NCBI GenBank assembly: GCA_030684405.1
Contig: JAUXYA010000003.1
Location: 1 to 57,102, forward strand
DNA length: 57,102 bases
Reading direction: 5' to 3'
Source: Burkholderiales bacterium
GTDB lineage: Bacteria > Pseudomonadota > Gammaproteobacteria > Burkholderiales > SG8-41
Shown piece by piece: positions 12,359 through 34,100 of the stretch. Numbering within the stretch: position 1 is the first letter of the stretch; the number at the start of each line of letters is the position of its first letter. Below the pieces are notes generated by a model. That model saw only the letters and a list, made by a program, of their open reading frames with translations. It made no database searches and was not told the DNA's origin. The translations under genes and the position numbers were made by a program.

Positions 12359-13768
12359 ATGAATCTCATTAAAGCGAATCCCGAAATACTGCCCCTGGAG
12401 GTCGATCTCGATCTGATCCGGCGCATGGATCGCAACGGTCCGCGTTATACCTCGTACCCGACGGCGGACCGTTTCGTCGAAGCATTTGCCGCCGAAACCT
12501 ACAAATCCTGGGTGGCCCGGCGCAACATCGGCGGCATCCGGCGCGCGCTGTCGATTTACGTGCATCTGCCGTTCTGCAGCACGATCTGTTTCTACTGCGC
12601 CTGCAACAAGGTGGTTACGCGCGACCGCGGCAAGGGCGAACGCTACCTGGACTATCTGTTCCGTGAAATCGACCTGCAGGGGCCGTTGTTCGGCGATGAC
12701 CGGGTGGTCGAGCAGATGCACTGGGGCGGCGGCACGCCGACTTTTTTCACGATGCCCCAGCTGGAGTTGCTGTGGCAGCGACTTAAGCGCCATTTCCGGA
12801 TGGCCGCCGACGGCGAATACTCAATCGAGGTGGACCCGCGCAGCGTCGATGCCGCCGGGATGCATGCATTGCGCGCCATGGGTTTTGGCCGTGTCAGCCT
12901 CGGCGTGCAGGATTTCGATCCCGAGGTCCAGCGCGCGGTCAACCGCGTGCAGAGTGAGGCGCAGACGCTGGAGGTGATGCAGGCTGCGCGTGCGGCCGGT
13001 TTTTCATCAATCAATGTTGACCTGATCTACGGCCTGCCCAAGCAGAATGCCGAGAGTTTCGACCGCACGCTCGACCGCGTCATCGCAGCCTCACCCGACC
13101 GCATCGCGATCTACAACTACGCGCATTTGCCGACGCGCTTCAAGCCGCAGCGGCGCATTGCCGACGCCGACCTGCCGCTGCCGGAGGTCAAGCTCGGGCT
13201 GATGGGGCTGGCCGCGCGCCGCCTGCGAGAGGCGGGCTATATCTACATCGGCATGGACCATTTCGCGAAGCCTGAGGATGCGCTGGCGGTGGCCCAGCGC
13301 AAGGGCCTGCTGCACCGCAATTTCCAGGGTTATTCGACCCACGCCGACTGCGACCTGATCGGTCTCGGGGTGTCGGCAATCGGCGCGATCGGTCCGACCT
13401 ACAGCCAGAACCACCGCGAGCTCGCCGACTATTACGACAGCCTCGATCGCGGCGTGCTGCCGGTGGTGCGCGGCCTTGAGTTGTCGGCCGATGACCTGCT
13501 GCGGCGCGCGGTGATCCAGGCGCTCAGCTGCCAGTTTCGGCTGTCGAAAAATTCCATCGAGATCGCCTATCTAATCGATTTCGATCGCTATTTTTCCGGG
13601 GAAATGGCCGACCTGCGCAGCATGGCGGCTGACGGGCTGGTGCAACTCGACGCGGAATGGATTACCGTGACGCCTCGTGGCCGCATGCTGGTCCGCAACA
13701 TCTGCATGGTGTTCGACAAGTACCTGCGCCGCGAGCGCGAGACCACCCGGTATTCGCGTGTCATTTAG
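12359..13768 (+). CDS. hemN: Oxygen-independent coproporphyrinogen III oxidase
   Basis: A 469-residue radical SAM enzyme that decarboxylates coproporphyrinogen III to protoporphyrinogen IX when oxygen is scarce. The N-terminal RYTSYPTADRF and YVHLPFCSTICFYCACNK motifs are those of true HemN rather than HemW; C73, C77 and C80 bind the cluster. Glycine-rich WGGGTPTFF and the SLGVQDFDPEVQ segment follow. Length agrees with E. coli HemN. It starts 54 bases after an FNR box and stands between fnr and the DsbD_2-like gene, a common arrangement near cbb3 operons because the oxidase needs heme. Confidence 0.95.
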   Translation: MNLIKANPEILPLEVDLDLIRRMDRNGPRYTSYPTADRFVEAFAAETYKSWVARRNIGGIRRALSIYVHLPFCSTICFYCACNKVVTRDRGKGERYLDYLFREIDLQGPLFGDDRVVEQMHWGGGTPTFFTMPQLELLWQRLKRHFRMAADGEYSIEVDPRSVDAAGMHALRAMGFGRVSLGVQDFDPEVQRAVNRVQSEAQTLEVMQAARAAGFSSINVDLIYGLPKQNAESFDRTLDRVIAASPDRIAIYNYAHLPTRFKPQRRIADADLPLPEVKLGLMGLAARRLREAGYIYIGMDHFAKPEDALAVAQRKGLLHRNFQGYSTHADCDLIGLGVSAIGAIGPTYSQNHRELADYYDSLDRGVLPVVRGLELSADDLLRRAVIQALSCQFRLSKNSIEIAYLIDFDRYFSGEMADLRSMAADGLVQLDAEWITVTPRGRMLVRNICMVFDKYLRRERETTRYSRVI

Positions 13769-13780
13769 AAAGTAGGCGTG

Positions 13781-14524
13781 ATGGATGGCTGGCTGCAGGC
13801 GATGATGCTTACCGCATTCGGTGCGGGCCTGCTCGGCGGCGCCCACTGTGCCGCAATGTGTGGCGGCATTGTCAGCCTGACCTGTACACCGGCGGCATCG
13901 CCACAGCAGCGGCGCTGGCGCTTTGCGCTGGCGTACAACGCCGGTCGCATATCCAGTTATGTGCTCGCCGGCGCACTCGCCGGCGCCCTTGGTCAGGCCG
14001 GCATGGCCCTGCGCGGCGGCGCGCTGGCCCAACACCTGCTGATGTTCCTGATGGGAGCGACCCTGATCGTCGTTGCGCTGAATGTGGCCGGCGTCACGCC
14101 GGTGACCCGCGGCATTGAGGCGGCGGGCGGCTTCCTCTGGCGCCGGGTGCAGCCCCATTCGCGCCGTTTTCTGCCGGTGACCGCACCCTGGCAGGCGTTG
14201 GGCCTCGGCGCTCTGTGGGGCTGGCTGCCCTGCGGCATGGTTTACGCCGTACTGCTGACTGCGCTGGCCTCCGGCAACGCCGCCGAAGGTGCGTTGATTC
14301 TTGGCGCTTTCGGTCTCGGCACACTGCCCAACCTGCTGCTGATCGGCGCAGCGGTAGGGCGTGCACAGGGCTGGATGCAGTTGCGCGCGCTGCGGTATGC
14401 CGCAAGCGCGGTGATTGCCGCCGTCGGCATCTGGGGCATGCTCCATGTGCTGCAACCAGCGGCGCGGGATGGCGACAGCCTGCTGTGTCGCGTCGCACCG
14501 GGGCTCGCCGAACTGCTGCGCTGA
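13781..14524 (+). CDS. DsbD_2/TauE-SafE-like membrane protein
   Basis: A 247-residue inner-membrane protein with about six hydrophobic helices and the motifs GGAHCAAMCGGI near residue 25 and GWLPCGMVYAVL near 155. These paired Cys-containing motifs are typical of the DsbD_2 (UreH-like, formerly sulfite exporter TauE) family, often found beside fnr, hemN and cco genes. A role in copper or thiol handling for cbb3 maturation is plausible but not established. Start may be GTG 13778 or ATG 13781, and the latter is used. It begins 12 bases after hemN and is probably cotranscribed. Confidence 0.8.
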   Translation: MDGWLQAMMLTAFGAGLLGGAHCAAMCGGIVSLTCTPAASPQQRRWRFALAYNAGRISSYVLAGALAGALGQAGMALRGGALAQHLLMFLMGATLIVVALNVAGVTPVTRGIEAAGGFLWRRVQPHSRRFLPVTAPWQALGLGALWGWLPCGMVYAVLLTALASGNAAEGALILGAFGLGTLPNLLLIGAAVGRAQGWMQLRALRYAASAVIAAVGIWGMLHVLQPAARDGDSLLCRVAPGLAELLR

Positions 14525-14593
14525 TCCGGCAGGCCGTCGTCCATCTTGCTTTCGTGAAAACGCCAGGTCACGCCGACGTTCACCTGTTGATGG

Positions 14594-16270: not shown

Positions 16271-19200
16271 CTATTCCGCGGCGCTGCGCGGTCTGTCTGG
16301 AGCCGGGCGGATCCTCAGGCGGATCTCGCGGCGCAACTGTTCTTCGTCCCGCCCCTTGATGAAGAACTTGTGGACTTCACCTTCGTTGATCGCGGCCGTC
16401 GCGATGCCGAAATCACCGACGCCGCTGAGCATGATGCGCACGATTTCCGGATACATCAGCTTGACCCGGCGCAGGAATTCGACGCCGCTCATCTCCGGCA
16501 TGTTCTGGTCGGAGATGACGATGCTGACGGAATGCGTGGCCAGCAGTTCGAATGCGTCATGGGTGTTGCCGGCCGTCAGCACCGGGTGTCCGTCCTTCTG
16601 CAGCAGCAGCTTGTTCAGTAGCAGGTGGTCGTTGTCGTCGTCTACGATCAGCACCGCAGGCGTGCGGTCGGCGGCCTCGGTCAGGCGCGCACGGTGCAGT
16701 GGACGTTCGGCGCTGAGCAGGGCGGCGCAGGCTTCCGCCGGCAGCGGTTTGGAGAACAGGTAGCCCTGCGCCTCGTCGCAGTGGTTTTCACCGAGGAAGC
16801 GCAATTGTTCCTCGTTCTCGACACCCTCGGCGACAACCCGCAGCCCGAGGCTGTGTGCCAGAGTAATCACCGTCCGCGCAATCACCGCATCGTCGGCATC
16901 GACGGTAATGTCGCGCACGAAGGAGCGGTCGATCTTCAGCGCATCCAGCGGGAAGCGTTTCAGGTAGTTCAGGCTCGAGTAACCGGTGCCGAAATCGTCG
17001 GCGGCGAGCAGGATGCCCAGCGCCTCCAGCTGCTTGAGGATGACGATTGCTTCTTCCGGGTTCTCCATCAGCGAGCTCTCGGTGATCTCGATCTGGATCA
17101 GCTGTGGCTCGATGCCGGATTCTGCCAGTGCCCGGCGCATGATCTCGCTGAATCCGGGCTGGCGCAGTTGGCGCGCGGAAAGATTGATGGCCACCGGTAC
17201 CGGCTGGATGCCGGCATCGCGCCAGGCGCGGATCTGTGCGCAGGTGGCCTGCGCAACCCATTCGCCCACCGGTACGATGAGGCCGGTCTCCTCCAGCAGC
17301 GGGATGAACTGCGCCGGCGGCACCAGGCCCTGATCGGACGATTGCCAGCGCAGCAGCGCCTCAAGGCCCGATATCCGGCCGCTGGCAATATCCACCTTGG
17401 GTTGATAATGGAGCACGAACTCGTGGCGCTCCAGCGCCCGGCGCATGCGGGACTCCAACTGCAGCTTCTCGGCGGCGCGGGCATTCATTGCCTCGGTGTA
17501 AAACTGAAAGTTGTTGCGTCCGGCTGCCTTCGCGCCGTACATCGCGGCATCTGCATTCCTGAGCAAGGTTTCGATTTCGCTGCTGTCAGCCGGATAGAGC
17601 GCGATGCCGATGCTGACGGAGATAAACACCTCGTTGCCGTCGAGATCGTAGGGGGCGGCCAGCGCGCGCAGCACCTTCTGCGCAACATGCCCGGCATTCT
17701 GCGGGCTCCACAGTTCAGGCAGGATCACCGCGAACTCGTCACCGCTCAAGCGGGAGACGGTATCGCTGGGGCGAAGGGTTGCAGTCAGTCGTGCCGCCAC
17801 CTGCTTCAGCAAGAGGTCGCCGGTGACATGACCCAGTGTGTCGTTGACCCGCTTGAAGCGGTCGAGATCGAGGAACAGGATGCCGATGATCCAGTTGTTG
17901 CGGCGCGCCTGCGCCACGGCCTGGCGCAGGCGGTCGTTGAACAACACGCGGTTGGGCAACCCGGTAAGGCTGTCGAAGTGGGCGAGGTGGGCCAGCTGCT
18001 CGCGGGAGAGCTTGGCCTCGGTGACGTCCTCGGCGATGCCGGCGATACGGTAGACCTCGCCGTGCACATTGCGAATCGGGAACGCGCGGTCGTGCATCCA
18101 GCGTACACTGCCGTCGACATGCACGACGCGGTACTCGATGTCGTAGGTGCCCAGAGGCGCCTTCTCCCTGCGTGCATGCTGTACGCGCTGCCGGTCATCC
18201 ACGTGGATCGCCGCCAGCCAGGATTTCGGATTCTGCTCCAACTCGGCGAGCGAGTGCCCGGTGATCAGTTCGTAGTTGGGGCTGGCATACAGCGTGCGGC
18301 GCTGCTCCGCATCGGTAATCCAGAATACCTGAGGCACATGCTGCGCCAGCTGGCGGAACTGCTCGTCGCTCTCCTGCAGCGCGAGCAGCGTCGCCTGGTG
18401 CTCGTCCTGCAGGCTGAGATTGGTCAGCGCGTAGGAAATGTCGCCAGCCATCTGCCGCAGCAGACTGATGGCCTCGTCGTCGAAAAATCCCTGTTCGGTC
18501 GCTTGCAGGCCCATGACGCCGACCGTTTCCCCATTGCAGGTAAAGGGTAGGGACGCCAGCGAGCGGAATCCGTAATGCCGCGCACGTTCATGCCAGCGCG
18601 TCAACAACGGGTCGTTCAACAGGTCGTTGCTGAACATTATCCGGTTTTCGCGGAAGGCGCGGCTCGCCAGTCCCTTGCCTTCAGGCAGCGTCGGATTGGT
18701 GGATACCCGCAGGTCGTTGAAGTAATGCCTGCTGACGCCGGCATAGGCGACGACTTTCAGTTCTTCGGTCTCCGGTTCATGGAGGCGCACCCACGCCGAA
18801 CCCACGCCACCGTCGCTGACGGCGATCCGGCACACCGCACGGAACAGACTCTCGCGGTCGCGCGTGCGCATGATTGCCGCGTTGGTCGCGCTAAGCGTGC
18901 TGAAAAAGCGGTTCAGCCGCATGATGCGCATCTCGGCAAGCTTGTGTGCGGTGATATCGCGGTTGACGCCGACGATGCCGAAAACCCGGCCCGAGTGGTC
19001 CTTCAGCGGAATTTTCGCGGTGAGGTGCCACTGCGGCTTGCGTTCGTTGAAACCCTCTTTCGCGACATAAGTCCGGGTTTCGCGCTCATTCATCGGCAGG
19101 CCCGATGCGACGATTTTCCGGTCTTCCTCACGGTAGCGCTTCGCCATTTCAGGCGGGAACAGTTCATCGACAGTCTTGCCGATGAGTTGTTCATGGCGGT

Positions 19201-21907
19201 CGACACCGCGGATTTTCAGGTATGCGGTATTGGGCAGGATGATGCGGCCTTCGAGGTCGCGCACGTAGATTCGTTCCGGCAGGGCGTCGATCACCGTGCG
19301 CAGCAGCAGGCGCTCCTGGGCCAGGGCATCCTCGACTTTTTTCCGCTCCGAGATGTCCTCCATCATGCGCAGGAAGTACAGCGGCTCTCCAGCGGAATCG
19401 CGCACCAGCGAGACCGAGCGGTTGGTCCACACCAGCGAACCATCCTTGTGCCGGTACGGGCGCTGCGAGCTGAATACCTTCATCTCGCCCTTCAGCATTT
19501 GCTGCAGGTAGTGCGGACGGTCGGCTTCCAGGTATTCCGGCGTCAGGATGTCTGCGGTGGTCATCTGCAGCAGCTCGTCACGGGTATAGCCGAGGATTTC
19601 GCAGGCCTTCGGGTTGGTATCGAGGATGCGGCGGTCGAAGCCGGTATGCATGATGCCGACGGGGGCTGTATCGAAGGTCGCGCGGTAGCTGTCCTCGGCC
19701 CGGCGCCGCGCGGTGATGTCCTCGACCACCAGCACAAAATGGGGCTTCCCGTCCGCGATATCGCGGGCCAGCGATGTCGTGCGCCGCACCCAGATCAGGC
19801 TGCCGTCGCCGCGCAGGTAGCGTTTCTCAGAGCGGAAGTTTTCGACTTCACCAGCCAGCAGGCGGGCGCGTGCTGCGGTATCCATGCCGCTGTCGTCGGG
19901 ATGGCTGACCTGCTTCAGGTTCATCCGCAGCAGGGACTCGCGGTCGTAACCGGTCATCTCGCAGAACTTCTGGTTGACTTCGAGGATGTCGCTGTCGAAA
20001 TTCACCCTGACAATGCCCACTGCGGCCTGCTCGAAGGTCTGCTCGAGGCGCGCCTCGGCCTCCTTGCGCGAGGTGATGTCCTGGATCACGGCAATGACAT
20101 GCGAGGGCTTGCCATCCGCGCCACAAACCGAGGAGACGCTGATCGAGCACCAGATGACGCTGCCGTCCTTGCGCCGGTAGCGGCGCTCCCGGCTGTAACC
20201 GGTGATCTCGCCGCTGTGCAATCTGTCGTTGTATTTGTAGGCCTCGCCCTGGTCGTCGGGTAGCGTGACGTCGGCCGGGCTCAGGCGCATCATTTCTTCG
20301 TGCGAGTAGCCGAGCATGTCGCAGAATTTCTGGTTGATGCGCAGCCAGTACCTGCCACGCCCGCCGGGTCGGCGCAGGGTCATGCCCACGCCGGCCTGCT
20401 CGAAGGTGGCGCTGAACAGTTCTTCCTCTTCCTTGCGCCGGGTGATGTCCTCGACGACGCGGATCAGGTACAGGGGCCCGCCGTCCTCGTCGCGCGCCAT
20501 CGACACGGTGCGTTTGACCCAGATCAGACGGCCGTCCTTGCGCCGGTAACGCTTTTCACCTGAAAAGCTGTTGATCTCGCCGGCGAGTAACTGCTGGCGC
20601 TGAGTCAGGTCCTTGCCTTTGTCCTCGGGATGCACCACGTCGTGGGTGCTCATACCCTGGATTTCTTCCTGGCCGTAGCCCAGCATCTCGCAGAAGCGGC
20701 TGTTCGCCAGCAGATAGCGGTCATCGAGCGTGGTGTGGACGATGCCGACAGTAGCCTGTTCGAAGGTGGTGCGGAACTGCTGCTCGGCGGCACGGCGGCT
20801 GGAGACGTCCTGGATCATCGCGACGAAGTAATCTGGCTCGTTGCCGGCCTGGCGCACGCGCGCGACTGAGGCTTCGGCCCAGATCACGCTGCCGTCCTTG
20901 CGGATAAAGCGCTTCTCGCTCGAACTCGTGTTGGGCGCGCCGTCGACAGTCAGCTCATTGCGGTTGTGGACTGAGGTTTCGCGGTCCGCGGGATGGGTGA
21001 TGTCGTTCAGGTTACGGGCCAGCAGCTCGCTCCGCGCGTACCCCAGTATCGAACAGGCCGCGGGATTGGCGTCGACCACCCGTCCATCGAGCGCGGTATG
21101 CACGATGCCGATAGGCGCGTGTTCGAGGGTGGCGCGATATCGCTGTTCTGCGGAATTGCGTTCAGTGATGTCGGTGGCAACGCCGCCCAGCGCGTAGATT
21201 GCGCCGGAGGGGTAGCGCAGCGGGAACTTGGTGACCAGGGAACTGTGCAGACCGTCGACATAAAGCGCCTGTTCCTCGAAAGTCATTGCAATACCTGCCT
21301 CAAGCACCTGCCGATCATGGCCCTGGAACGCTGCGGCCTGTGCCCCTCCGAAAATCTCGGCATCGGTGCGGCCCAGTACGGTGCTCTCGTCGAGGCCAAA
21401 GGCTTGCAGGAAGCGGGGATTGACGTGCAGGTAGTGGCCCGCCGTGTCCTTGATGAAGGTCGGCGCCGGGCTGTTGTCGAGGAAGGCTTGCAGGCGGGCC
21501 TCGTTCTGCAGCAGTGTGTCGCGCAGCCGCCGGCGCTCCAGCGCGACCTGGATTACGACAGGCAAGCGGCTCAGCTGATCTTTGAGCAGGACATCGTCTG
21601 CCCCCTGCCGCAGGACTTCCTCCGCTTCCGCCTCGCGGATGGCGCCGGAAACCAGGATGAACGGGATGTCGAGGCCGCGTTCGCGCAGGAGAGTCAGCGC
21701 GCGCAGGCCGTTGAATCGCGGAAGATGGTAATCAGAGAGCACGATGTCGGGGCCGGCATCGAGCCCGGTCCGGTAGTCCGCCTCGGTCTGCACGCGCCTC
21801 CAGTCATAGCCGTGGCCGCTGCTGCGCAGGGTGGCCATCAGCAGTTCGGCGTCGGCATCCTGGTCCTCGACCAGCAATACGCGCAATGTGTGGACCGGAT
21901 TCAGCAT
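16271..21907 (-). CDS. Multi-PAS REC/GAF/GGDEF/EAL/REC signalling protein
   Basis: An 1878-residue soluble cyclic-di-GMP signalling protein. Approximate order: REC (8-125, phospho-acceptor Asp59 in LSDYH); seven PAS/PAC units of about 120 residues (135-1005); GAF (1020-1180); an eighth PAS (1190-1310); GGDEF (1320-1480) with SGDEF and an RPSD inhibitory site five residues before it; EAL (1495-1740) with [30 protein letters not shown] and VAEGVE; and a final REC (1755-1870, VISDQNMP). The EAL catalytic residues look intact. The first residue of the GGDEF signature is Ser, which may still allow cyclase activity. No transmembrane segment is seen. It may be part of a phosphorelay, since REC domains occupy both ends. 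A decayed paralogue lies upstream. Confidence 0.92.
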   Translation of the reverse strand: MLNPVHTLRVLLVEDQDADAELLMATLRSSGHGYDWRRVQTEADYRTGLDAGPDIVLSDYHLPRFNGLRALTLLRERGLDIPFILVSGAIREAEAEEVLRQGADDVLLKDQLSRLPVVIQVALERRRLRDTLLQNEARLQAFLDNSPAPTFIKDTAGHYLHVNPRFLQAFGLDESTVLGRTDAEIFGGAQAAAFQGHDRQVLEAGIAMTFEEQALYVDGLHSSLVTKFPLRYPSGAIYALGGVATDITERNSAEQRYRATLEHAPIGIVHTALDGRVVDANPAACSILGYARSELLARNLNDITHPADRETSVHNRNELTVDGAPNTSSSEKRFIRKDGSVIWAEASVARVRQAGNEPDYFVAMIQDVSSRRAAEQQFRTTFEQATVGIVHTTLDDRYLLANSRFCEMLGYGQEEIQGMSTHDVVHPEDKGKDLTQRQQLLAGEINSFSGEKRYRRKDGRLIWVKRTVSMARDEDGGPLYLIRVVEDITRRKEEEELFSATFEQAGVGMTLRRPGGRGRYWLRINQKFCDMLGYSHEEMMRLSPADVTLPDDQGEAYKYNDRLHSGEITGYSRERRYRRKDGSVIWCSISVSSVCGADGKPSHVIAVIQDITSRKEAEARLEQTFEQAAVGIVRVNFDSDILEVNQKFCEMTGYDRESLLRMNLKQVSHPDDSGMDTAARARLLAGEVENFRSEKRYLRGDGSLIWVRRTTSLARDIADGKPHFVLVVEDITARRRAEDSYRATFDTAPVGIMHTGFDRRILDTNPKACEILGYTRDELLQMTTADILTPEYLEADRPHYLQQMLKGEMKVFSSQRPYRHKDGSLVWTNRSVSLVRDSAGEPLYFLRMMEDISERKKVEDALAQERLLLRTVIDALPERIYVRDLEGRIILPNTAYLKIRGVDRHEQLIGKTVDELFPPEMAKRYREEDRKIVASGLPMNERETRTYVAKEGFNERKPQWHLTAKIPLKDHSGRVFGIVGVNRDITAHKLAEMRIMRLNRFFSTLSATNAAIMRTRDRESLFRAVCRIAVSDGGVGSAWVRLHEPETEELKVVAYAGVSRHYFNDLRVSTNPTLPEGKGLASRAFRENRIMFSNDLLNDPLLTRWHERARHYGFRSLASLPFTCNGETVGVMGLQATEQGFFDDEAISLLRQMAGDISYALTNLSLQDEHQATLLALQESDEQFRQLAQHVPQVFWITDAEQRRTLYASPNYELITGHSLAELEQNPKSWLAAIHVDDRQRVQHARREKAPLGTYDIEYRVVHVDGSVRWMHDRAFPIRNVHGEVYRIAGIAEDVTEAKLSREQLAHLAHFDSLTGLPNRVLFNDRLRQAVAQARRNNWIIGILFLDLDRFKRVNDTLGHVTGDLLLKQVAARLTATLRPSDTVSRLSGDEFAVILPELWSPQNAGHVAQKVLRALAAPYDLDGNEVFISVSIGIALYPADSSEIETLLRNADAAMYGAKAAGRNNFQFYTEAMNARAAEKLQLESRMRRALERHEFVLHYQPKVDIASGRISGLEALLRWQSSDQGLVPPAQFIPLLEETGLIVPVGEWVAQATCAQIRAWRDAGIQPVPVAINLSARQLRQPGFSEIMRRALAESGIEPQLIQIEITESSLMENPEEAIVILKQLEALGILLAADDFGTGYSSLNYLKRFPLDALKIDRSFVRDITVDADDAVIARTVITLAHSLGLRVVAEGVENEEQLRFLGENHCDEAQGYLFSKPLPAEACAALLSAERPLHRARLTEAADRTPAVLIVDDDNDHLLLNKLLLQKDGHPVLTAGNTHDAFELLATHSVSIVISDQNMPEMSGVEFLRRVKLMYPEIVRIMLSGVGDFGIATAAINEGEVHKFFIKGRDEEQLRREIRLRIRPAPDRPRSAAE

Positions 21908-23057: not shown

Positions 23058-23396
23058 TTACTTTGCAGCTTCAATGCCGGTCACGGTATACACGCTGCCG
23101 ATCTTCTCCGCACTGAAGCGGACCTTGTCGCCGGCCTTGATGCCTTGCAGCAAGGCCGGATCCTTGACCTGAAACACCATGGTCATCGGCGGCATGTCGA
23201 GATTGGGGATGGGGCCGTGGCGCAGGGTGATTTTCTTGGTATCCAGATCGACCCGGCGCACCTCGGCGTCCGACAGCGCGCTTTTTGCGGAGGCAGCTGC
23301 AGGTGCCGGATGGTGGGCCGCATGGTCTGCGGCAGTTTGCTGGGCGTAGACGGGTGCACTCGCGAGGATCGCGGCGATCAACAGGGTTTTTCTCAT
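23058..23396 (-). CDS. CusF-like periplasmic copper-binding protein
   Basis: A 112-residue exported protein: signal peptide to about residue 18 (APVYAQ), a His-rich linker (DHAAHHPAP), then a CusF-type small beta-barrel with the copper-site region LRHGPI and MPPMTMVF, followed by KAGDKVRF. CusF binds Cu(I)/Ag(I) with His, two Met and a Trp cap; the Trp position appears to be Met here, as in many CusF-like proteins. It would carry periplasmic copper to an efflux system or to the neighbouring oxidase. It is the last gene of the copper operon. Confidence 0.85.
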   Translation of the reverse strand: MRKTLLIAAILASAPVYAQQTAADHAAHHPAPAAASAKSALSDAEVRRVDLDTKKITLRHGPIPNLDMPPMTMVFQVKDPALLQGIKAGDKVRFSAEKIGSVYTVTGIEAAK

Positions 23397-23429: not shown

Positions 23430-23870
23430 TCAGTAACGGGCATAAATGGAATGGCGGCCGTCTTTGTTCACCAGCAGCACGTTGTAGCGCTGCGGTGTCG
23501 GCGACTCCATGCCCGGCGAGCCCTGCGGCATGCCGGGCACGGCAAGCCCGGCCGCGACGGGGCGCTCGGCGAGCAGGCGCTTGATTTCACGCGCCGGCAC
23601 ATGGCCCTCGATGGCATAACCTTCGACAACACCCGTGTGGCAACCGCCGAGGTTTGCGGGAATGCCGCGGCGCTTGCGCTCATCGGCGGTGTCTTCGACT
23701 GCGACCGACTTCACACGGAAGCCGTTGGCGCGCAGATGATCCATCCACGCGCCGCAGCAGCCTCAACTTGGGTTCAGATAGACCGTGACCAGCGGTGGTT
23801 CGCTACTGTGGGCGACTCCGGTCATTGCAGCCACTGCCAGCGCGAATATGAATTGACGTCGCTTAAGCAT
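23430..23870 (-). CDS. DUF411 metal-binding protein with in-frame TGA (possible selenoprotein)
   Basis: Reading from ATG 23870 gives a signal-peptide-like start (MLKRRQFIFALAVAAM...AHS), then VTVYLNPS, a TGA at 23765-23763, then GCCGAWMDHLRANGF and the rest of a complete DUF411 domain (GGCHTGVVEGYAIEGHVPA, AGLAVPGMPQGSPGME) to the stop, 146 codons in all counting the TGA. DUF411 proteins normally read PSCGCC or PTCGCC here, so the TGA replaces exactly the first Cys. Nothing else is damaged. A SECIS-like hairpin follows (23727-23753). Either Sec is inserted, or this is a single nonsense mutation or sequencing error; a product starting at internal ATG 23744 would lack the motif. DUF411 proteins sit in copper-resistance operons, as here, and are thought to bind metal through these Cys. 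Confidence 0.7.
23727..23753 (-). promoter_or_regulatory. SECIS-like hairpin after the in-frame TGA
   Basis: In gene direction, GGCGCG pairs with CGCGCC. The stem continues through two G-U pairs and GAT/ATC to give 11 pairs closed by the five-base loop GGATC. The loop starts 20 bases after the TGA. The published bacterial SECIS model asks for an apical loop 16-37 bases from UGA, 3-14 bases long, with a G among its first two bases; all are met. Pairing was done by hand, and GC-rich DNA forms such stems by chance fairly often. Confidence 0.55.
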
Positions 23871-23876
23871 TGCCGA

Positions 23877-24380
23877 TTACCTCTGGGTTACGTTGACTTT
23901 GCCGACCATGCCGGCCTCGAAATGTCCGGGCAGCAGGCAGCCGAAATGAAATTCACCGGCCTTGGTGAATTGCCAGATGACGGTTTCGGTTTTGCCGGGC
24001 GCGACGTGGGCCATGTACGGTTCGTCGTGTTCCATGTTGGGGAATTTTTTCATCAGCTCGGCATGCTCCTTCAGCTCCGCCATATTACCGAGCACGAACT
24101 CGTGCATGACCTTGCCGGAGTTTTTGACGATGAAGCGAATGGTCTCGCCCTGCTTGACTGAAACGGAGGCAGGGATGAAGCGCATCTTGTCGTTCATGTC
24201 GATATTGATCGTGCGCGTGATCTTTTTCGGATCACCCTGTTTGCCGAAGGCTTTTTCTTCCGGGTTGATCGCGGCGGGTTTGCCGCTTTTTTTGCCATGA
24301 GCTTCACTGTGGGCCCAGACGGGCGTGGCGGTGAGTGCGGCGACCAGCAGCGAGATGGCCAGAGGGGTGCGGTATGTCAT
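23877..24380 (-). CDS. Periplasmic cupredoxin (copper tolerance)
   Basis: A 167-residue exported blue-copper-type protein. It has a signal peptide to about residue 23 (TPVWAHS), a Lys/His-rich linker, and a plastocyanin-like fold with probable copper ligands His in VMHEFVLG and Cys, His, Met in GCLLPGHFEAGM. It resembles cupredoxins of copper-resistance operons, for example the CopI type, which protect periplasmic enzymes from Cu(I). It lies between the multicopper oxidase and DUF411 genes; its stop is six bases before the DUF411 ATG. The AT-rich element at 24391-24425 lies immediately upstream of its start. Confidence 0.85.
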   Translation of the reverse strand: MTYRTPLAISLLVAALTATPVWAHSEAHGKKSGKPAAINPEEKAFGKQGDPKKITRTINIDMNDKMRFIPASVSVKQGETIRFIVKNSGKVMHEFVLGNMAELKEHAELMKKFPNMEHDEPYMAHVAPGKTETVIWQFTKAGEFHFGCLLPGHFEAGMVGKVNVTQR

Positions 24381-24597: not shown

Positions 24598-25989
24598 TTA
24601 GTGTTGGTGTCCAGTGGCGGGCTTGCGCGCGCGGAATTCTTTGTCCGGTGTAACAACCGGTGACGGCTTGGCTTGGGTCGCCGAGGGTGTGGTGCCGGTC
24701 CACTCGTAAGCCACGGTGCCGGGCGGAAATTTGTACGGGCCGGGATCGCTGTAGTCGCCGGGTTTCTGGTCCTTGCGAACCTTGAGCACGCTCAGCATGC
24801 CACCCATGCCGATGGGACCGAACTGGCCGTGCCCGGCCATCATGGGCGCGGTGTTCTCGGGAAGTTGCATTTCCATTTCCTTCATGTCGTACATGCCGCG
24901 TTCGCCCATCAGCATGTAGTCGGGCACTACCTTCTGGATCTTGCTGACCAGGCCGCGATGGTCCACGCCGATCATGGTCGGTACGTCGTGTCCCATCGCA
25001 TTCATGGTGTGGTGGCTCTTGTGGCAATGGAAGGCCCAGTCGCCTTCCTCGTCAGCGATGAATTCGAGCTGGCGCATTTGCCCCACGGCGATGTCGGCCG
25101 AGACCTCGGGCCAACGGCTGGTTACAGGGGTCGGGCCACCGTCGGTGCCGGTGACTTCGAATTCGTGGCCGTGCAGGTGAATGGGATGATTGGTCATCGT
25201 CAGGTTACCGATGCGGATGCGCACGCGGTCTCCGTGACGGACATTGAGCGTGTCGATACCCGGGAAGACGCGGCTGTTCCAGCACCAGATGTTGAAGTCG
25301 AGCATGGTGTTGATCTTGGGCGTGCGGGAGCCGGGCTCGACGTCGAAGGCGTTGAGCAGGAAACAGAAATCACGGTCCACCTCTTTGATCAACGGATGTT
25401 TTGCCTTGGGGTGGGTGACCCAGAAGCCATGCATGCCCATGGCCATTTGGGTCATCTCGTCGGCGTGGGGATGGTACATAAAGGTACCGGGGCGGCGCGC
25501 CTCGAACTCGTAGACGAAGGTCTTGCCGGCGGGGATGGAGGGTTGGTTCAGCCCCGCCACGCCGTCCATGCCGGCCGGCAGACGCTGCCCGTGCCAGTGC
25601 ACGGTGGTGGGCTCGGGCAAGCGGTTGGTCACGAAGAGGCGTATGCGGTCGCCTTCCACCACCTCAATGGTCGGGCCCGGACTTTGCCCGTTGTAACCCC
25701 ACATGTTGACCACGAAGCCGGGAGTGACCTCGCGCACCACCGGCTCGGCTACCAGGTGGAATTCCTTGACCCCGTTGTTCATCCGCCAGGGCAGTGTCCA
25801 GCCGTTGAGGGTGACTACCGGGTTGTAGGGGCGGCCAGTGTTGGGCGCGAGGGGGGCGCCCGTGGCGGCAGAGGTCTGGATGACCGGCTCGGGCAATGCA
25901 GCCAGCGCGGAGCGGGCAATCACCAGACCGGCGACCGATGCGGCGGCACCGGCGAAGAACTGTCGGCGGGTGGGAGTGTTCTGTGTCAT
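24598..25989 (-). CDS. Tat-exported multicopper oxidase
   Basis: A 463-residue multicopper oxidase. The start MTQNTPTRRQFFAGAAAS is a twin-arginine signal for export of the folded enzyme. Copper-ligand motifs are in order: VHWHGQRLP, MYHPHADEM, HPIHLHGHEFEVTG and FHCHKSHHTM, covering the type 1 and trinuclear sites. Met-rich stretches near the C-terminus (GMYDMKEMEM, MMAGHGQFGPIGMGGM) may bind Cu(I). The likely role is Cu(I) oxidation and detoxification, as for CueO/CopA. ATG 25989 is chosen over the frame opening at 26058 because the Tat signal begins there. It starts 28 bases after the TolC-like gene. Confidence 0.92.
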   Translation of the reverse strand: MTQNTPTRRQFFAGAAASVAGLVIARSALAALPEPVIQTSAATGAPLAPNTGRPYNPVVTLNGWTLPWRMNNGVKEFHLVAEPVVREVTPGFVVNMWGYNGQSPGPTIEVVEGDRIRLFVTNRLPEPTTVHWHGQRLPAGMDGVAGLNQPSIPAGKTFVYEFEARRPGTFMYHPHADEMTQMAMGMHGFWVTHPKAKHPLIKEVDRDFCFLLNAFDVEPGSRTPKINTMLDFNIWCWNSRVFPGIDTLNVRHGDRVRIRIGNLTMTNHPIHLHGHEFEVTGTDGGPTPVTSRWPEVSADIAVGQMRQLEFIADEEGDWAFHCHKSHHTMNAMGHDVPTMIGVDHRGLVSKIQKVVPDYMLMGERGMYDMKEMEMQLPENTAPMMAGHGQFGPIGMGGMLSVLKVRKDQKPGDYSDPGPYKFPPGTVAYEWTGTTPSATQAKPSPVVTPDKEFRARKPATGHQH

Positions 25990-26017
25990 GTAAAGGAATC
26001 CTTGTGTCGATGTCGTG

Positions 26018-27127
26018 TCAATGACCGGCGGGCGCGGCGCTGGCACCCTGATTGGCACCGCCGAGGGAGACGAAGTTGCCGGGCTGGCCCCCTTGCAGCA
26101 CCCATTGCAGATCAGTATCGGCGATCAGGGCATCGCGCTGGACACTGATGGCCGCCACCACGGCTTGCGATCGGGCACTCACGTCAGCCAGCAGATCCCA
26201 CACGCTTTTCAGCATGCCGTTGTAACGCAGCAAGGTTTCCTCGCCAATGAGTTGACGCTGCTTCAATATCCCCTCGCGGTGAATGCGGTGGGCCTGCAGG
26301 CTGGCGGTATAGGCGGCAAAGGCTTGCCTGGCCTGTGTGGCTGCCTTGCGGCTTTCGGCCTGGGGCAGATGCCCTTGAATGGCGGCGGTGCGCTGCTGCA
26401 GCTGCGATTCGTTGATCGCGGTTGCCGGCGTATCCGGCAAGCGGTCCGGCAGCGCCACACTGTCATGTACCGAATCCAGCCCCATCGCCTTGAGCAGCGC
26501 CCATTCGGCCTGCTGGACGGCCAGCCGGGCGCGCGTGAGTTCCAGCTGAGCCGACGATTCGCCTAGCGCGACCTGGGCCTGCTGGTAGGCGCTCCAGTTA
26601 CCCACGCGCACCATGCGACGTCCCAATTCTGCGGCCGCTTCAGTCGCCGTCAGCGCGTTCTCATGATGCTGCAAGGTTTGCCGCGCGGCCACGGCCGTGA
26701 ACCAGGCCTTGCGCGTCGTCGCGGCGATTTCGAGCACTCTATCTGCACCGTGGATTCTGTTTTGCAGGGTGGGATCCAGCGCGCTCCAGTCCCCGCTAGC
26801 GACGCGCTCGACGTTCTGGCGGCCCATTTGGGCCAGCGGGGACGCCAGATCCAGGTGTGCACTCCATGCCGCACGGACCGCATCGGCAGCGGAAGCCAGC
26901 GCAAAGCCGGCGGCCGGGCTCTGCGCGGTGACGGCCTTGGGTGTCTGGCTTTGCTCCCACCGCAGAACATCGACGTGCCCCCGGGGAAACTGACCCACGG
27001 CTTCGTTGGCTTTACGCCATTCCTGCGCTGCGCTTTCTTGCCCTTGAGCCTGGACGGCCCATGGTAATACGGCCAAACCCAGTGCCAACACGGGTCTCAG
27101 CGTCAGGCTTGCCCATCGATGTTTCAT
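26018..27127 (-). CDS. TolC-like outer-membrane efflux family protein
   Basis: A 369-residue exported protein with a signal peptide (VLPWAVQAQG) and long Ala/Gln-rich amphipathic helices with heptad character (ARQTLQHHENALTATEAAAE, ESSAQLELTRARLAVQQAEW), typical of the TolC/CusC coiled-coil barrel. It is shorter than usual (about 420-480 residues), and only a modest beta-barrel part is visible. No RND pump or membrane-fusion gene is adjacent, so the partner may be elsewhere or the protein may act differently. It is the first gene of the copper operon, divergent from the CopRS-like genes. Confidence 0.65.
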   Translation of the reverse strand: MKHRWASLTLRPVLALGLAVLPWAVQAQGQESAAQEWRKANEAVGQFPRGHVDVLRWEQSQTPKAVTAQSPAAGFALASAADAVRAAWSAHLDLASPLAQMGRQNVERVASGDWSALDPTLQNRIHGADRVLEIAATTRKAWFTAVAARQTLQHHENALTATEAAAELGRRMVRVGNWSAYQQAQVALGESSAQLELTRARLAVQQAEWALLKAMGLDSVHDSVALPDRLPDTPATAINESQLQQRTAAIQGHLPQAESRKAATQARQAFAAYTASLQAHRIHREGILKQRQLIGEETLLRYNGMLKSVWDLLADVSARSQAVVAAISVQRDALIADTDLQWVLQGGQPGNFVSLGGANQGASAAPAGH

Positions 27128-27399: not shown

Positions 27400-28083
27400 G
27401 TGAAAATATTGATTATTGAGGATGAGCCCAAGACGGGCGACTATCTGCGCCAGGGTCTGCGTGAGGCGGGATTCGTCGTGGACCTCATGTCCAACGGCGA
27501 GGATGGCTTGCACCATGCGCTGGAGGGCGAGCACGATCTGGTGATCCTGGACGTGATGCTGCCGGGTATGGATGGCTGGCAGGTATTGCGCAACTTGCGC
27601 AGTCACGGGCGGCTGACACCGGTGCTGTTCCTGACTGCACGTGACCAGGTGGAAGACCGGGTCAAGGGGCTGGAACTGGGCGCGGATGATTATCTGGTCA
27701 AGCCTTTTTCCTTTGCTGAGCTGTTGGCCCGGGCACGCACCATCCTGCGTCGTGGCCGCAGCGGCGTGGAGAGCACTACCCTGCAAGTGGCCGATCTGGA
27801 ACTCGACCTGCTGCGCCGTCGAGCGAGTCGCGCCGGCAAGCGCATCGCCCTCACGGCCAAGGAGTTCGGCCTGCTGGAACTGCTGATGCGCCGCCAAGGC
27901 GAGGTGCTGCCGCGTTCGCTGATTGCTTCGCAGGTTTGGGACATGAATTTCGACAGTGACACCAATGTGATCGAGGTGGCGGTGCGGCGCCTCAGAGCCA
28001 AGGTGGATGATGGTTTCGACGTCAAGCTGATCCAAACCGTGCGCGGCATGGGTTACGTCCTGGAAGTGCCTGACACCCGATGA
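27400..28083 (+). CDS. copR: Heavy-metal response regulator (OmpR family)
   Basis: A 227-residue response regulator: receiver domain with acidic pocket EDE, phospho-acceptor Asp in VILDVMLPG (about residue 51) and Lys in VKPFSF, followed by an OmpR-type winged helix (about 130-223). Sequence features such as [11 protein letters not shown] and [17 protein letters not shown] match the CopR/CusR/IrlR branch that responds to copper or silver. It starts at GTG 27400 with no obvious strong ribosome-binding site. It overlaps the sensor gene by four bases and diverges from the copper operon it presumably controls. Confidence 0.85.
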
Positions 28084-29465
28084 AGTGGCCGCAACTGACC
28101 CTGACCGCCAGACTGACGATCCTGTTCACCGGGGTGGCTGTTTCGGTTCTGCTCGGGCTGGGCGTCCTGGTTGCCTGGGCCACGGACCGTCATTTCGTGG
28201 AACTCGACCACGCCTACCTGAGCGACAAAGTGCATCTGGTTGAGAAATTCGTCGCGGAAGCGAACACCCCTGCCGAGTTGAAGAAGGTGCTCGACGAAAT
28301 GCTGGGCAGTCACAGTGGTTTGTTCATCCAGGTGTGGCGGGATAGTGAGCTCATTTACGGCCCTGCGGACCTGGCCGAAAATGCACCGGCCGGATTTCTC
28401 CCTGAAGGAAATTTCGCCGATTGGAAATATGCGAATACGGAACTCCGGGGATTGGTCGAGAGGCTGAAGCTGCGTGTCGATAGTCCCTTGGTGAGCACCG
28501 GATCCCGGGATGTGCGCGTGTTGGTGGCCGTAGATACCGTGCACCACGAGCATTTCCTGGCTGCCATGAAAAAGACGCTGGTCCTCTACATTCTGTTCGC
28601 AACCTTCGTCAGCGGTTTGCTCGGCTGGTGGGTTGCCCGTAAGGGACTGGCGCCATTGAAGGGGATGCGCGAGAGGGCGAAGTCCATCACCGTACACAAC
28701 CTGCAGGAGCGCATGCCTGTGGACTCGGTGCCGGTGGAGTTGGCCGAACTGGCAGTGGGCTTAAACAGCATGTTTGACCGGCTCAACCGGGATTTTCAGA
28801 GGTTGATGGATTTTTCCGCTGACCTGGCACACGAGCTGCGAACGCCCCTGAGCAACCTGTTGACCCAAACCCAGGTGGCACTGGCGCAGCGGCGCAATCC
28901 CGACGAATATCGAGAGGTCCTCGCGTCCAACGCTGAAGAGTTCGAACGCATGGCCAAGATGGTCTCGGACATGCTGTTTCTGGCCAAAATGGAAAACGGC
29001 ATCGACCTGCCGCACCGCGAGCTCATCAGGTTGGATGACGAAGTGCGTGCGCTGTTTGATTTCTACGAGGCCGTGGCCGGGGAGAAGAATGTTCGGCTGG
29101 ATCTCAAAGGGCAGGCTGAGATGGACGGCGACAAGCTGATGATCCGACGCGCCATCAGCAACCTTCTGTCAAACGCTTTGCGTCATGCTGATGCCGGCTC
29201 AGTTGTCGGAATCGACATTTCCTCGCGCGAAGAGGCGGTGGAACTGGAAGTCATCAACCAGGGCCAGACAATCGCCCCGGATGATCTGCCACGACTTTTT
29301 GACCGCTTTTACCGGGCCGACAGATCCCGCGGGCATCCGGCGTCGGAGGGGGCGGGTCTGGGGCTGGCGATCACCAAGGCCATTGTGGAGTCACACGGAG
29401 GCCGGATTGGTGTGCGTTCCTCGGAGCGGAGGACAAGTTTTTACCTGGAGTTTCCCAGGCCATAA
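28080..29465 (+). CDS. copS: Heavy-metal sensor histidine kinase
   Basis: A 461-residue membrane sensor kinase of the CopS/CusS type. It has transmembrane helices near residues 12-32 and 165-185, a periplasmic sensor domain between, then HAMP (about 190-240), HisKA with phospho-acceptor His in [14 protein letters not shown], and HATPase_c with [18 protein letters not shown] and [12 protein letters not shown]. The periplasmic domain would detect Cu(I) or Ag(I). The ATG overlaps the response-regulator stop codon (ATGA), so the pair is translationally coupled. Confidence 0.88.
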
Positions 29466-31131: not shown

Positions 31132-31159
31132 TTGTTTTTGAGTGGTGTGTTGTTACACT
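31132..31159 (+). promoter_or_regulatory. Possible promoter of the adhesin gene
   Basis: TTGTTT (31132-31137) and TACACT (31154-31159) are 16 bases apart in an AT-rich stretch just before the adhesin signal peptide. A start of transcription near 31166 would coincide with the likely GTG start and leave no leader. This is a by-eye guess. Confidence 0.3.
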
Positions 31160-31165
31160 GCCCGC

Positions 31166-34100
31166 GTGCAAAAAGTTTCCAAAAATGTCTTGCTGCCCCG
31201 TCTGTCCGTGCTGGCCGTTGCCGCCTGCTTTGGCGGCGCAGCGCTGGCCAACCCGGCGAACCCGACGGTGGTGCATGGCACGGCCACATTTCAGCAGGCC
31301 GGCAACATCCTCAACATCACCAACAGCGCCAACGCCATCATCAACTGGGGCTCGTTCTCGATCAGCGTTGGTGAACTGACCCGTTTCATCCAGCCTTCAG
31401 CCTTGTCGGCGGTATTGAACCGCGTGACCGGCCAGGACCCCTCGGCCATCCTCGGTGCGCTGCAGTCGAACGGCCGCGTGTTCCTGATCAACCCCAACGG
31501 CATCGTCTTCGGCGCCGGTGCGCAGATCGACGTTGCCGGGCTGGTGGCCTCCACTCTGAATCTCAGCAACGAAGACTTCCTCAACAACCGGATGCGCTTC
31601 ACCGACGGCATCGGTGCCGGCAGCGTGGTGAACCAGGGCCAGATCACCGGCGGCAGTGTCTACCTGGTGGGCAATGCGGTGACCAACAACGGGCTGATCA
31701 CCAGCCCCAACGGCGAAGTGGTGCTGGCTGCGGGCAACAGCGTGGAGCTGGTGAACCCGGGGACACCGAACCTGCGGGTGGAAATCAACGCCCCGGATAA
31801 CGAAGCCCGCAACCTCGGCACCATCAGCGCGGAGGCCGGGCGCATCGGCATCTACGCCGGGCTGATCAACAACAGCGGCACGCTCAACGCCAGCAGCGCC
31901 GTGGCGGAGGGCGGGCGCATCCTGCTCAAGGCAACACAGAACGCCAGCACCACGACGGACAGCCAGATCAGCGCCAGTGGCGGAGCGGGTGGCGCGGTCA
32001 CGATCGAGTCGGACGGCACCACGCTGGTCGAAGGCCGGGTCAATGCGACCGGCAGCGCGGGTGCCGGCGGCAGCGTACATCTGCTGGGTGAACGGGTTGG
32101 ACTCATCGGCAACGCCAGTATCGACGCTTCGGGCGCGACCGGCGGCGGCACGGTGCTGGTGGGAGGCGACTATCAGGGCGCGAATCCGGAGATTCGGAAT
32201 GCAGAGCGCGCTTACGTCGGACGGAATGTCGCGATCAGGGCGGATGCGCTTATCGAGGGCGACGGCGGCAAGGTTATTGTCTGGGCGGATGGCGACACCC
32301 GCTACGCCGGGTCGATCAGTGCGCGCGGTGCGGGGAGCGGTGATGGCGGCTTCGTCGAAGTATCCGGTAAGCATCTGCTGGATTTCCACGGACGCGTCGA
32401 TGTCGGCGCAGACAGCGGCGTTGGTGGCCTTGTGCTGCTCGACCCGCAGGACATCCTGCTCAACACCTCGACCCAGCCGACGCCGCCCGTCAATCCCGAC
32501 GGGGTGCCGGATGTTGCTTTTGGTGATGCGCCGGACCCCGGTACCTACACCATCCAGATCGCCGACGTCACCGGTTTCTCCGAACTGTACCTGCAGGCCA
32601 CCCGCAACATCACCGTCGCCAACGCGGTGACCATGGGCGCCGGCAACAGCATCCGGCTCGAGGCCAACAACAACATCACCGTCAATGCCGGCGCGACGAT
32701 GACAGTATCGGGTGCCGGCTCGATCACTCTGACGGCGGATGCCGACAGTTCGGGCGCCGGCGCGGTATCGCTGGCTGCCGGCCTGGTGGCGCGCGAGGGC
32801 GGCATAACGATCAGTGGTGCCGGGGTGACCGGCACGGCTGCCGGAACCATCAGCACCACTGGCGCCGGCAACCTGGACGCGGGCAACGTGACGATCAACG
32901 CCAGCGGCACGGTCAGCCTGCTGGGCGCCATCACGGCAAGCGGCGGCACGGCGACCGGCGGCAATCCCGGACGTAACGGCGGCAATGTCACCATCAACGC
33001 GGCTGGCGTGAGTACTGCGGCGATCACCGCCAACGGTTCCGCGGGTGTTGGCGCCGGACTGAGCCAGCAGGGCGGTGCGGGCGGCACAATCACCATCAAC
33101 TCGACTGGTGGCGTGACGACCGGCGCGCTGGGCGCATCTGGTGGCAACGCGAGCACCACCAATGCCGCCGGTGGTGCCGGGGGGGCGATCGCGATCAACA
33201 ACAGCGTCGCTGGCAACGTGACGACCGGAGCCTTGACCGCGCGCAACGGTTCGGCAACAGGTTCCGGCATCGGCGGCGCCGGCGGCGGCATCACGGTGAC
33301 GAACACGGCTGGGAACATCAGCACGGCAGCAATCAGCACCGCAGGCAATGCCAAGGGTGCAGGCGGCAATGTCACACTGGATGCCGGTGGCGGTGTGCAG
33401 GTGACGGGCACGATTTCCACTTCCGGCGGTGGTGGTTTGGGTGTGACGCCCGGAGCAAATGCCGGCAACCTGATCATCACCGGCGTGAACCGCGCGATCA
33501 CGGGCGCCATCACCGCGAGCGGCGGCGCCGGACTCGGGGCGAACCAGAACGCAGGTGCTGCGGGCACAGTGAGCATCACCGGCAGCGGCACGCTGTCCAC
33601 GGCGGGAATCACCGCAAGGACGGGTAATGCGACGGGCACCGGTGCGGGCGGTGCTGCCGGCAGCATCACGCTCACCGGCAGCACGGTGACCGCCGGGGCG
33701 TTGACGACCAGCGGTGGTTCGAACGGCGACGCCGGCGCGATCAGCGTGACCGCGGCCAGCGGCCTGCTGAACCTGACGGGCAACCTGGCGGCCAGCGGTG
33801 GTGCTGCGGTTTCGGGTACTGGCGGCAACGACGGGGCAACTGTTGTCCTTGGCGGAGTCAACGTGACGACATTGGCACTGACCGCCAGCGGCTCCAATGG
33901 CACGGGGGCGAACCAGGCCGGCGGCGCCGGCGGATCCATCACCGTCAATTCGACCGGTGGCGTGACGACGGGTGCCGTTACGGCATCGGGCGGCAATGCC
34001 ACCGCAACGAACGGCAACGGCGGTGCGGCCGGCAGCATTGCAGTCAACAACAGCGTCGCCGGCAATGTTGCGACCACCACGCTCACGGCGCGCAACGGTT

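Follow-up and report, generated by a model that had tools for sequence, protein, structure and literature searches.

The gene at positions 23430-23870 (minus strand) of the DNA analysed here in all likelihood encodes a selenocysteine (Sec) form of the copper resistance protein CopG, in which an in-frame UGA would specify Sec. We assign this reading a probability of about 0.88; there are no protein, 75Se or RNA data. The window, that is, the whole stretch of 57,102 nucleotides, belongs to contig JAUXYA010000003.1 of a Burkholderiales bacterium (GCA_030684405.1). What can be taken directly from the sequence comprises the UGA, its conservation, the Sec machinery, the hairpin in the Betaproteobacteria and the fold of the protein. 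A sequence-only reading of the same DNA, made without database searches, had already suggested a selenoprotein of the DUF411 family; the hairpin adjacent to the UGA, the CopG fold, a large further group of such genes in the unrelated Acidobacteriota and a close relative carrying Cys instead go beyond it.

The DUF411 frame from 23870 to 23430 consists of 146 codons followed by an ordinary TGA as terminal stop. Its translation, MLKRRQF...VYLNPS*GCCGAW...SIYARY*, contains a single internal stop, the TGA at 23765-23763, exactly where the sequence-only reading had placed the only interruption of a complete frame. No other frame damage was found in the window gene, nor in the best matches of the 43 TGA-bearing genomes described below. 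The TGA column is that of the first Cys of CGCC in the DUF411 homologues, and the TGA read as Sec gives residue 36 of a U-G-C-C motif. Together with this residue Cys38-Cys39 (23754-23759) form the CxCC motif; further downstream are Cys77 (C-H-T, 23640-23642) and the pair Met114 and Met121 (MPQGSPGM, 23508-23531). Positions 36, 38, 39 and 77 and both Met are invariant in a protein alignment of 39 rows (15 Sec and 24 Cys rows, Sec and Cys counted together at position 36). The window protein therefore has the motif, the distal Cys and the Met pair, with Sec as first residue of the motif. The N-terminal segment (23805-23870, minus strand) is signal-like as judged from the sequence without a predictor, and its KRRQF resembles a twin-arginine motif.

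By sequence and fold the window protein is CopG. It matches PF04214 (DUF411) with 89.2 bits, and a sequence search up to E 0.001 found a single solved relative, 6WIS/6WJE from Pseudomonas aeruginosa (E 5.6e-31). An AlphaFold2 model, for which Sec was entered as Cys, reached a pLDDT of 89.9, and in the fold search with this model 6WIS/6WJE, titled copper resistance protein CopG, came first (E 3e-15; 44% identity; TM scores of 0.90-0.93 by target and of 0.78-0.79 by query). Thioredoxins followed as the nearest other structures, at E about 0.01. In the model residue 36 is situated between strand 27-32 and helix 39-48, which we take to be the place of the thioredoxin active site. The likeness to the known CopG proteins, Rhodobacter CutG among them, extends over identity, fold, the four Cys columns, the two Met and the copper gene context, whereas in the window gene UGA takes the place of the codon for the first Cys of CxCC.

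PMC7558416 places CopG-like proteins in the periplasm and states that CxCC and two Met hold a tetranuclear Cu cluster in them; oxidation of Cu(I) and onward transfer of copper have been proposed as their function. PMC8456105 describes CopG as a Cu-thiol oxidoreductase and reports that the homologue CutG and its Cys/Met motifs are dispensable for multicopper oxidase maturation in Rhodobacter capsulatus, a result that makes it less likely that CopG mainly supplies the oxidase with copper. In PMC8872213 CopG is named as an oxidoreductase easing export by Cus.

The neighbours of the CopG gene in the window are mostly copper genes. A cupredoxin gene (23877-24380, minus strand; CopI-like, below the model cut-off) is located directly upstream, with the CopG gene starting 6 nt after it, and a gene for a CusF-like copper-binding protein (23058-23396, minus strand) follows directly downstream. 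A multicopper oxidase (24598-26058, minus strand) and an outer-membrane-efflux-like protein (26018-27127, minus strand; weak, 21.8 bits vs a cut-off of 22) are encoded as well, and divergent from the copper genes are a response regulator (27400-28083, plus strand) and a CusS-like sensor kinase (28080-29465, plus strand). Within 20 non-acidobacterial TGA loci, a subset on named contigs or fetched later, a CusF like that of the window is near in 14, a cupredoxin in 15 and a multicopper oxidase in 14; the respective numbers for 88 Cys loci are 16, 9 and 15. None of 21 acidobacterial TGA loci had copper genes of the window set, the flanks being short in all but locus L115, and Pfam revealed no copper gene around L115. 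A scan of the promoter and terminator gave nothing above chance. When the window was scanned by codon-position GC for other TGA-interrupted genes, the CopG gene was not among the best 25 frames reported, and Pfam found no family spanning a TGA in the 8 of these read-through frames that were searched. The window also contains a frame of 2087 aa with an MBG domain towards the C-terminus (31142-37405, plus strand) and one of 1878 aa (16271-21907, minus strand).

The mechanism we propose is as follows. The UGA would be decoded as Sec by SelB and tRNA-Sec, aided by a hairpin starting at the codon, and the product with NPS-U-G-C-C would be a thioredoxin-like domain carrying Sec36 just ahead of helix 1. 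Sec36, Cys38, Cys39, probably Cys77 and the two Met could then bind the multinuclear Cu cluster already described for the Cys form; Sec36 would replace one cluster thiolate, the first of the motif, and might also form a UxxC redox pair. At neutral pH a selenol gives up its proton, and the selenolate that results is a softer partner for Cu(I) and is more easily reduced again once oxidised. Such a softer and more readily re-reduced site would suit the handling of Cu(I)/Cu(II) in the periplasm, and its tasks may be Cu(I) uptake, Cu(I)/Cu(II) cycling or copper transfer to the multicopper oxidase or efflux parts. The actual insertion of Sec, the binding of copper by Sec and a benefit of selenium are inferences. 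That CopG has a natural copper-selenolate cluster, with Sec36 as a ligand, perhaps a bridging one, in a Cu4 S/Se site, we consider slightly better than an even bet.

Sec36 could also act as the catalytic redox nucleophile of a UxxC thiol/selenol oxidoreductase rather than primarily as a ligand of copper; the selenoprotein part of the explanation would stay the same, and Sec alone would have another task. Known selenoproteins often carry UxxC, and this string is found 28 times in PMC13188914; moreover, thioredoxins (E about 0.01) are next to CopG in structure, and no copper neighbours were found in the acidobacterial loci. A purely redox function is nevertheless not easily reconciled with four Cys columns and two Met that are invariant in 15 Sec and 24 Cys rows, or with the cupredoxin, multicopper oxidase and CusF near 15, 14 and 14 of the 20 non-acidobacterial TGA loci. 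We regard the redox nucleophile as possible, though rather doubtful. The UxxC of thioredoxin-fold selenoproteins sits, as we assume, at the start of helix 1, just as modelled for the Sec of CopG. Those listed in the part of PMC13188914 Table 1 available to us (Trx, Grx, DsbA-like, Prx-like) share the UxxC spacing and the UGA with a downstream hairpin, but they belong to another family, and the window protein has an extra motif Cys (U-x-C-C), the distal Cys and the Met pair.

The sequence-only reading had called for a search of relatives for TGA or Cys at the column. Such a search covered 149 relatives, 71 of which had a match (46 of the window's own family and 25 of other families). In 43 of the 46 the best match contains TGA, each time one TGA and no other stop. 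All 43 TGA-bearing genomes thus belong to the window's own family, one of environmental bacteria; no stop was present in the matches of the 25 other genomes, one of which (G124) does not reach the TGA column. Three genomes of the family match without a stop, namely G002, which has TGC and is 88% identical, G054, with 49% identity and its codon unread, and G032, matched in two pieces neither of which lies over the column. Two DUF411 matches, both with TGA, were seen in each of G031 and G047, two in G050, one with and one without TGA, and additional short DUF411 pieces in G026 and G069. In an even draw over the whole class 102 of 369 genomes matched, some of the matches stopping short of the TGA column, and the window's own copy alone had a stop.

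The codon at the column was read in fetched loci only, and other matching places were scored merely as having one TGA. All 189 fetched loci of the gene, which include the window itself and many genes twice as two records of one gene, have TGC (95), TGA (79) or TGT (15) at this place and nothing else, so the expectation that Cys stands here in the family is met by every fetched copy without TGA. Neither TAA nor TAG was encountered in the matches of the family, class and Acidobacteriota searches.

The flanks of the TGA, described earlier as well conserved in both directions, are indeed under purifying selection. In a set of 16 congeneric TGA genes neither side reaches a Ka/Ks of 1, the values being 0.31 upstream with the signal peptide included (94 of 120 pairs kept), 0.18 in the 12 codons preceding the TGA (85 of 120 pairs) and 0.20 downstream (120 of 120 pairs). 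Pairs without synonymous change or without a solution were left out.

These values also bear on the idea that the UGA is a regulated stop, a selenium or copper switch yielding a short peptide or a product from ATG 23744 and the Sec protein only part of the time. The frame 23430-23744 does open with an ATG just past the UGA, and all 16 congeneric genes have ATG at this codon. In other TGA rows, however, the Met is mostly replaced by Ile or Val (Glu in L063, Met in L073), no Shine-Dalgarno-like stretch is visible by eye ahead of ATG 23744, and the codons upstream of the UGA are under purifying selection. We judge a regulated stop to be very improbable.

The genome of the window (99.4% complete) encodes the machinery required by the preferred reading as a Sec-containing CopG. 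tRNA-Sec was detected with 75.9 bits, SelB with 434 bits and SelA, whose gene adjoins that of SelB, with 585.9 bits. SelD (C21:4962-5891, L161) served as internal control: it has an in-frame TGA of its own in GGG*GCK, which we take to be the known Sec site of SelD, and a hairpin is also predicted 3' of this TGA. With SelB, tRNA-Sec, SelA and SelD all present, the suggestion of a DUF411 selenoprotein gains support from the genome. tRNA-Sec exceeded the cut-off in 41 of the 43 TGA genomes (not in G008 and G071), as did SelB in 41 (not in G009 and G071). The 25 genomes of other families contrast with them, with tRNA-Sec in 7 and SelB in 6, but this contrast is confounded by kinship. Of six named TGA genomes, four have tRNA-Sec and in two it was not found. 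Directly after selA and selB, L047 has a thioredoxin-reductase-like gene (13674-14579, minus strand; 225 bits, below the model cut-off) that may be part of a selenium locus.

Read-through without Sec occurs in other bacteria, and insertion of Trp, Cys or Arg by another tRNA, or an altered genetic code, could be invoked for the UGA. This is hardly tenable here, as TGA is the terminal stop of the CopG gene itself and of two among six neighbours, all fetched copies without TGA have Cys at the column, and the Sec machinery is present. A pseudogene, a nonsense mutation or a sequencing error, favoured merely by the usual prior for a stop inside a frame, can practically be dismissed with the TGA common to 43 family genomes (raw reads were not seen) and purifying selection on both sides of it in 16 congeneric genes.

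For a Sec-containing CopG the region at the UGA itself is of relevance. A SECIS-like hairpin is predicted at 23718-23764 (minus strand), starting inside the UGA codon and with its apical loop about 21-25 nt past the codon. The 54 nt from the UGA fold as a long hairpin of -29 kcal/mol (z -3.2 vs dinucleotide shuffles). Compared with synonymous shuffles, z was below -1.64 in 21 of 24 TGA genes (median -2.26) and in 2 of 53 Cys genes (median -0.02), repeated stretches of 48 or 54 nt having been removed before counting; L115, the sole acidobacterial gene among the 24, had a z of -0.56. In the congeneric TGA genes mean dS is 0.22 in the 16 hairpin codons vs 0.83 in the codons after them (95 of 120 pairs kept for the hairpin). 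Dropping the pairs without synonymous change raises the hairpin dS, so this contrast is conservative. Furthermore, codon identity within the hairpin exceeds that of the remaining gene by a factor of 1.46 in each of the two betaproteobacterial TGA groups and by factors of 1.04-1.22 in five Cys groups, three of which are parts of another (repeated or short genes excluded).

Base pairing was counted over 25 distinct stretches from TGA loci, in which 93.3% of 450 pair cells of the hairpin are paired. Ten pair cells are changed on both sides vs a shuffled mean of 2.8, and none of 500 shuffles was as high. Only 3 pairs of the structure are changed on both sides, however, a number reached by 47 of 500 shuffles, and with the partners slid by -3 there are 5 such pairs. 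In the RNAalifold consensus the upper stem is weaker and none of the pairs shows changes in both partners, and no SECIS family was among the Rfam matches at E up to 5 for 23600-23900 (301 bases). Taken on folding and codon comparisons, the betaproteobacterial genes meet the criterion of a predicted SECIS hairpin directly downstream of the UGA, with the pair counts mixed.

A second group of TGA genes was reached via L115, a MAG titled Vicinamibacterales. The class of L115 yielded matches in 91 of 193 genomes, and of the 94 places matched 42 have one TGA; a draw over its phylum, partly of the same genomes, gave 43 matching genomes of 396 with 46 places, 15 of them with one TGA. One acidobacterial copy (L203) reads U-P-C-C in place of U-G-C-C. 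The hairpin energy test was negative in the Acidobacteriota: the median z is -0.52 for 26 TGA genes vs -0.54 for 21 Cys genes, and values below -1.64 were obtained for 3 and 5 of them, respectively, repeated stretches of 48 or 54 nt again having been removed. The identity ratio of the hairpin codons is 1.38 in one set of 16 and 1.08 over all 28 acidobacterial genes, and 1.22 for the Cys genes in this comparison. tRNA-Sec matches were present in 150 of the 193 genomes of the class, so the machinery there does not separate Sec from Cys genomes. It was found in 34 of 42 acidobacterial TGA genomes (three of these at 50.8-51.9 bits only) and not found in the remaining 8, for which genome completeness was not given.

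The distribution of Sec and Cys was followed on a FastTree for which the 189 loci, with repeated or short genes dropped, supplied 168 distinct proteins, 61 of them with TGA. The state changes 7 times on this tree, and at least 39 times when the states are shuffled (200 shuffles), suggesting several origins of Sec. Judged from this tree, Sec seems to have arisen several times from Cys, in the Betaproteobacteria and the Acidobacteriota. Pure TGA clades with more than one member have support values of 0.73-0.97; support of the deep branches was not taken into account. A previous tree, built from 139 proteins and lacking the acidobacterial Cys genes from the phylum draw, had given 3 changes. A single reversion of CopG from Sec to Cys is also probable. 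In G002 the Cys gene (L019) is placed among the TGA genes on the 168-protein tree and retains the hairpin (z -2.28 vs synonymous shuffles), which fits a recent loss of Sec; a recent change from Sec to Cys is likely for this genome (74% complete), in which tRNA-Sec is present and SelB was not found.

As far as these searches go, Sec in CopG is new. The sequence-only reading knew of no described DUF411 selenoprotein, and our literature search, which did not cover most subscription papers and preprints outside PMC, likewise found no paper pairing DUF411 with selenoprotein or selenocysteine. DUF411 is absent from the 119 selenoprotein families or subfamilies in what was accessible of PMC13188914 Table 1 (May 2026), PF04214 does not occur in the text of that paper, and the available parts of PMC12013277, PMC9312934 and PMC5029168 name no DUF411 selenoprotein. 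No model of NCBIfam 20.0 passed E 0.001 for the window CopG. TsoX, with its HSGNPxU motif (NF045809), shares by name the letters NPxU and UxxC with the window protein; it was rejected, since a search admitting E up to 10 matched four models, none of them NF045809. A copper-selenolate cluster was not found described in the literature search listings. The presence of Sec near copper proteins has precedents, since the accessible part of PMC13188914 Table 1 lists predicted metal-related bacterial selenoproteins: CopZ-like 2Fe-2S proteins, a cation ATPase with UxxC, the SO_0444 Cu/Zn transporter, a mercuric transport protein and SaoL. They resemble the window protein in having a predicted Sec in a metal-handling protein, but none of them is DUF411.

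If the reading is correct, one more conserved family would join the list of bacterial selenoproteins, with Sec at a position that, as reported from a solved structure of the Cys form, belongs to a copper cluster. Annotation that takes the UGA as a stop would then truncate CopG in the window's family and in many Acidobacteriota. The matched Sec and Cys forms, including the Cys relative with 88% identity, would make the effect of selenium vs sulfur at a copper site directly testable.
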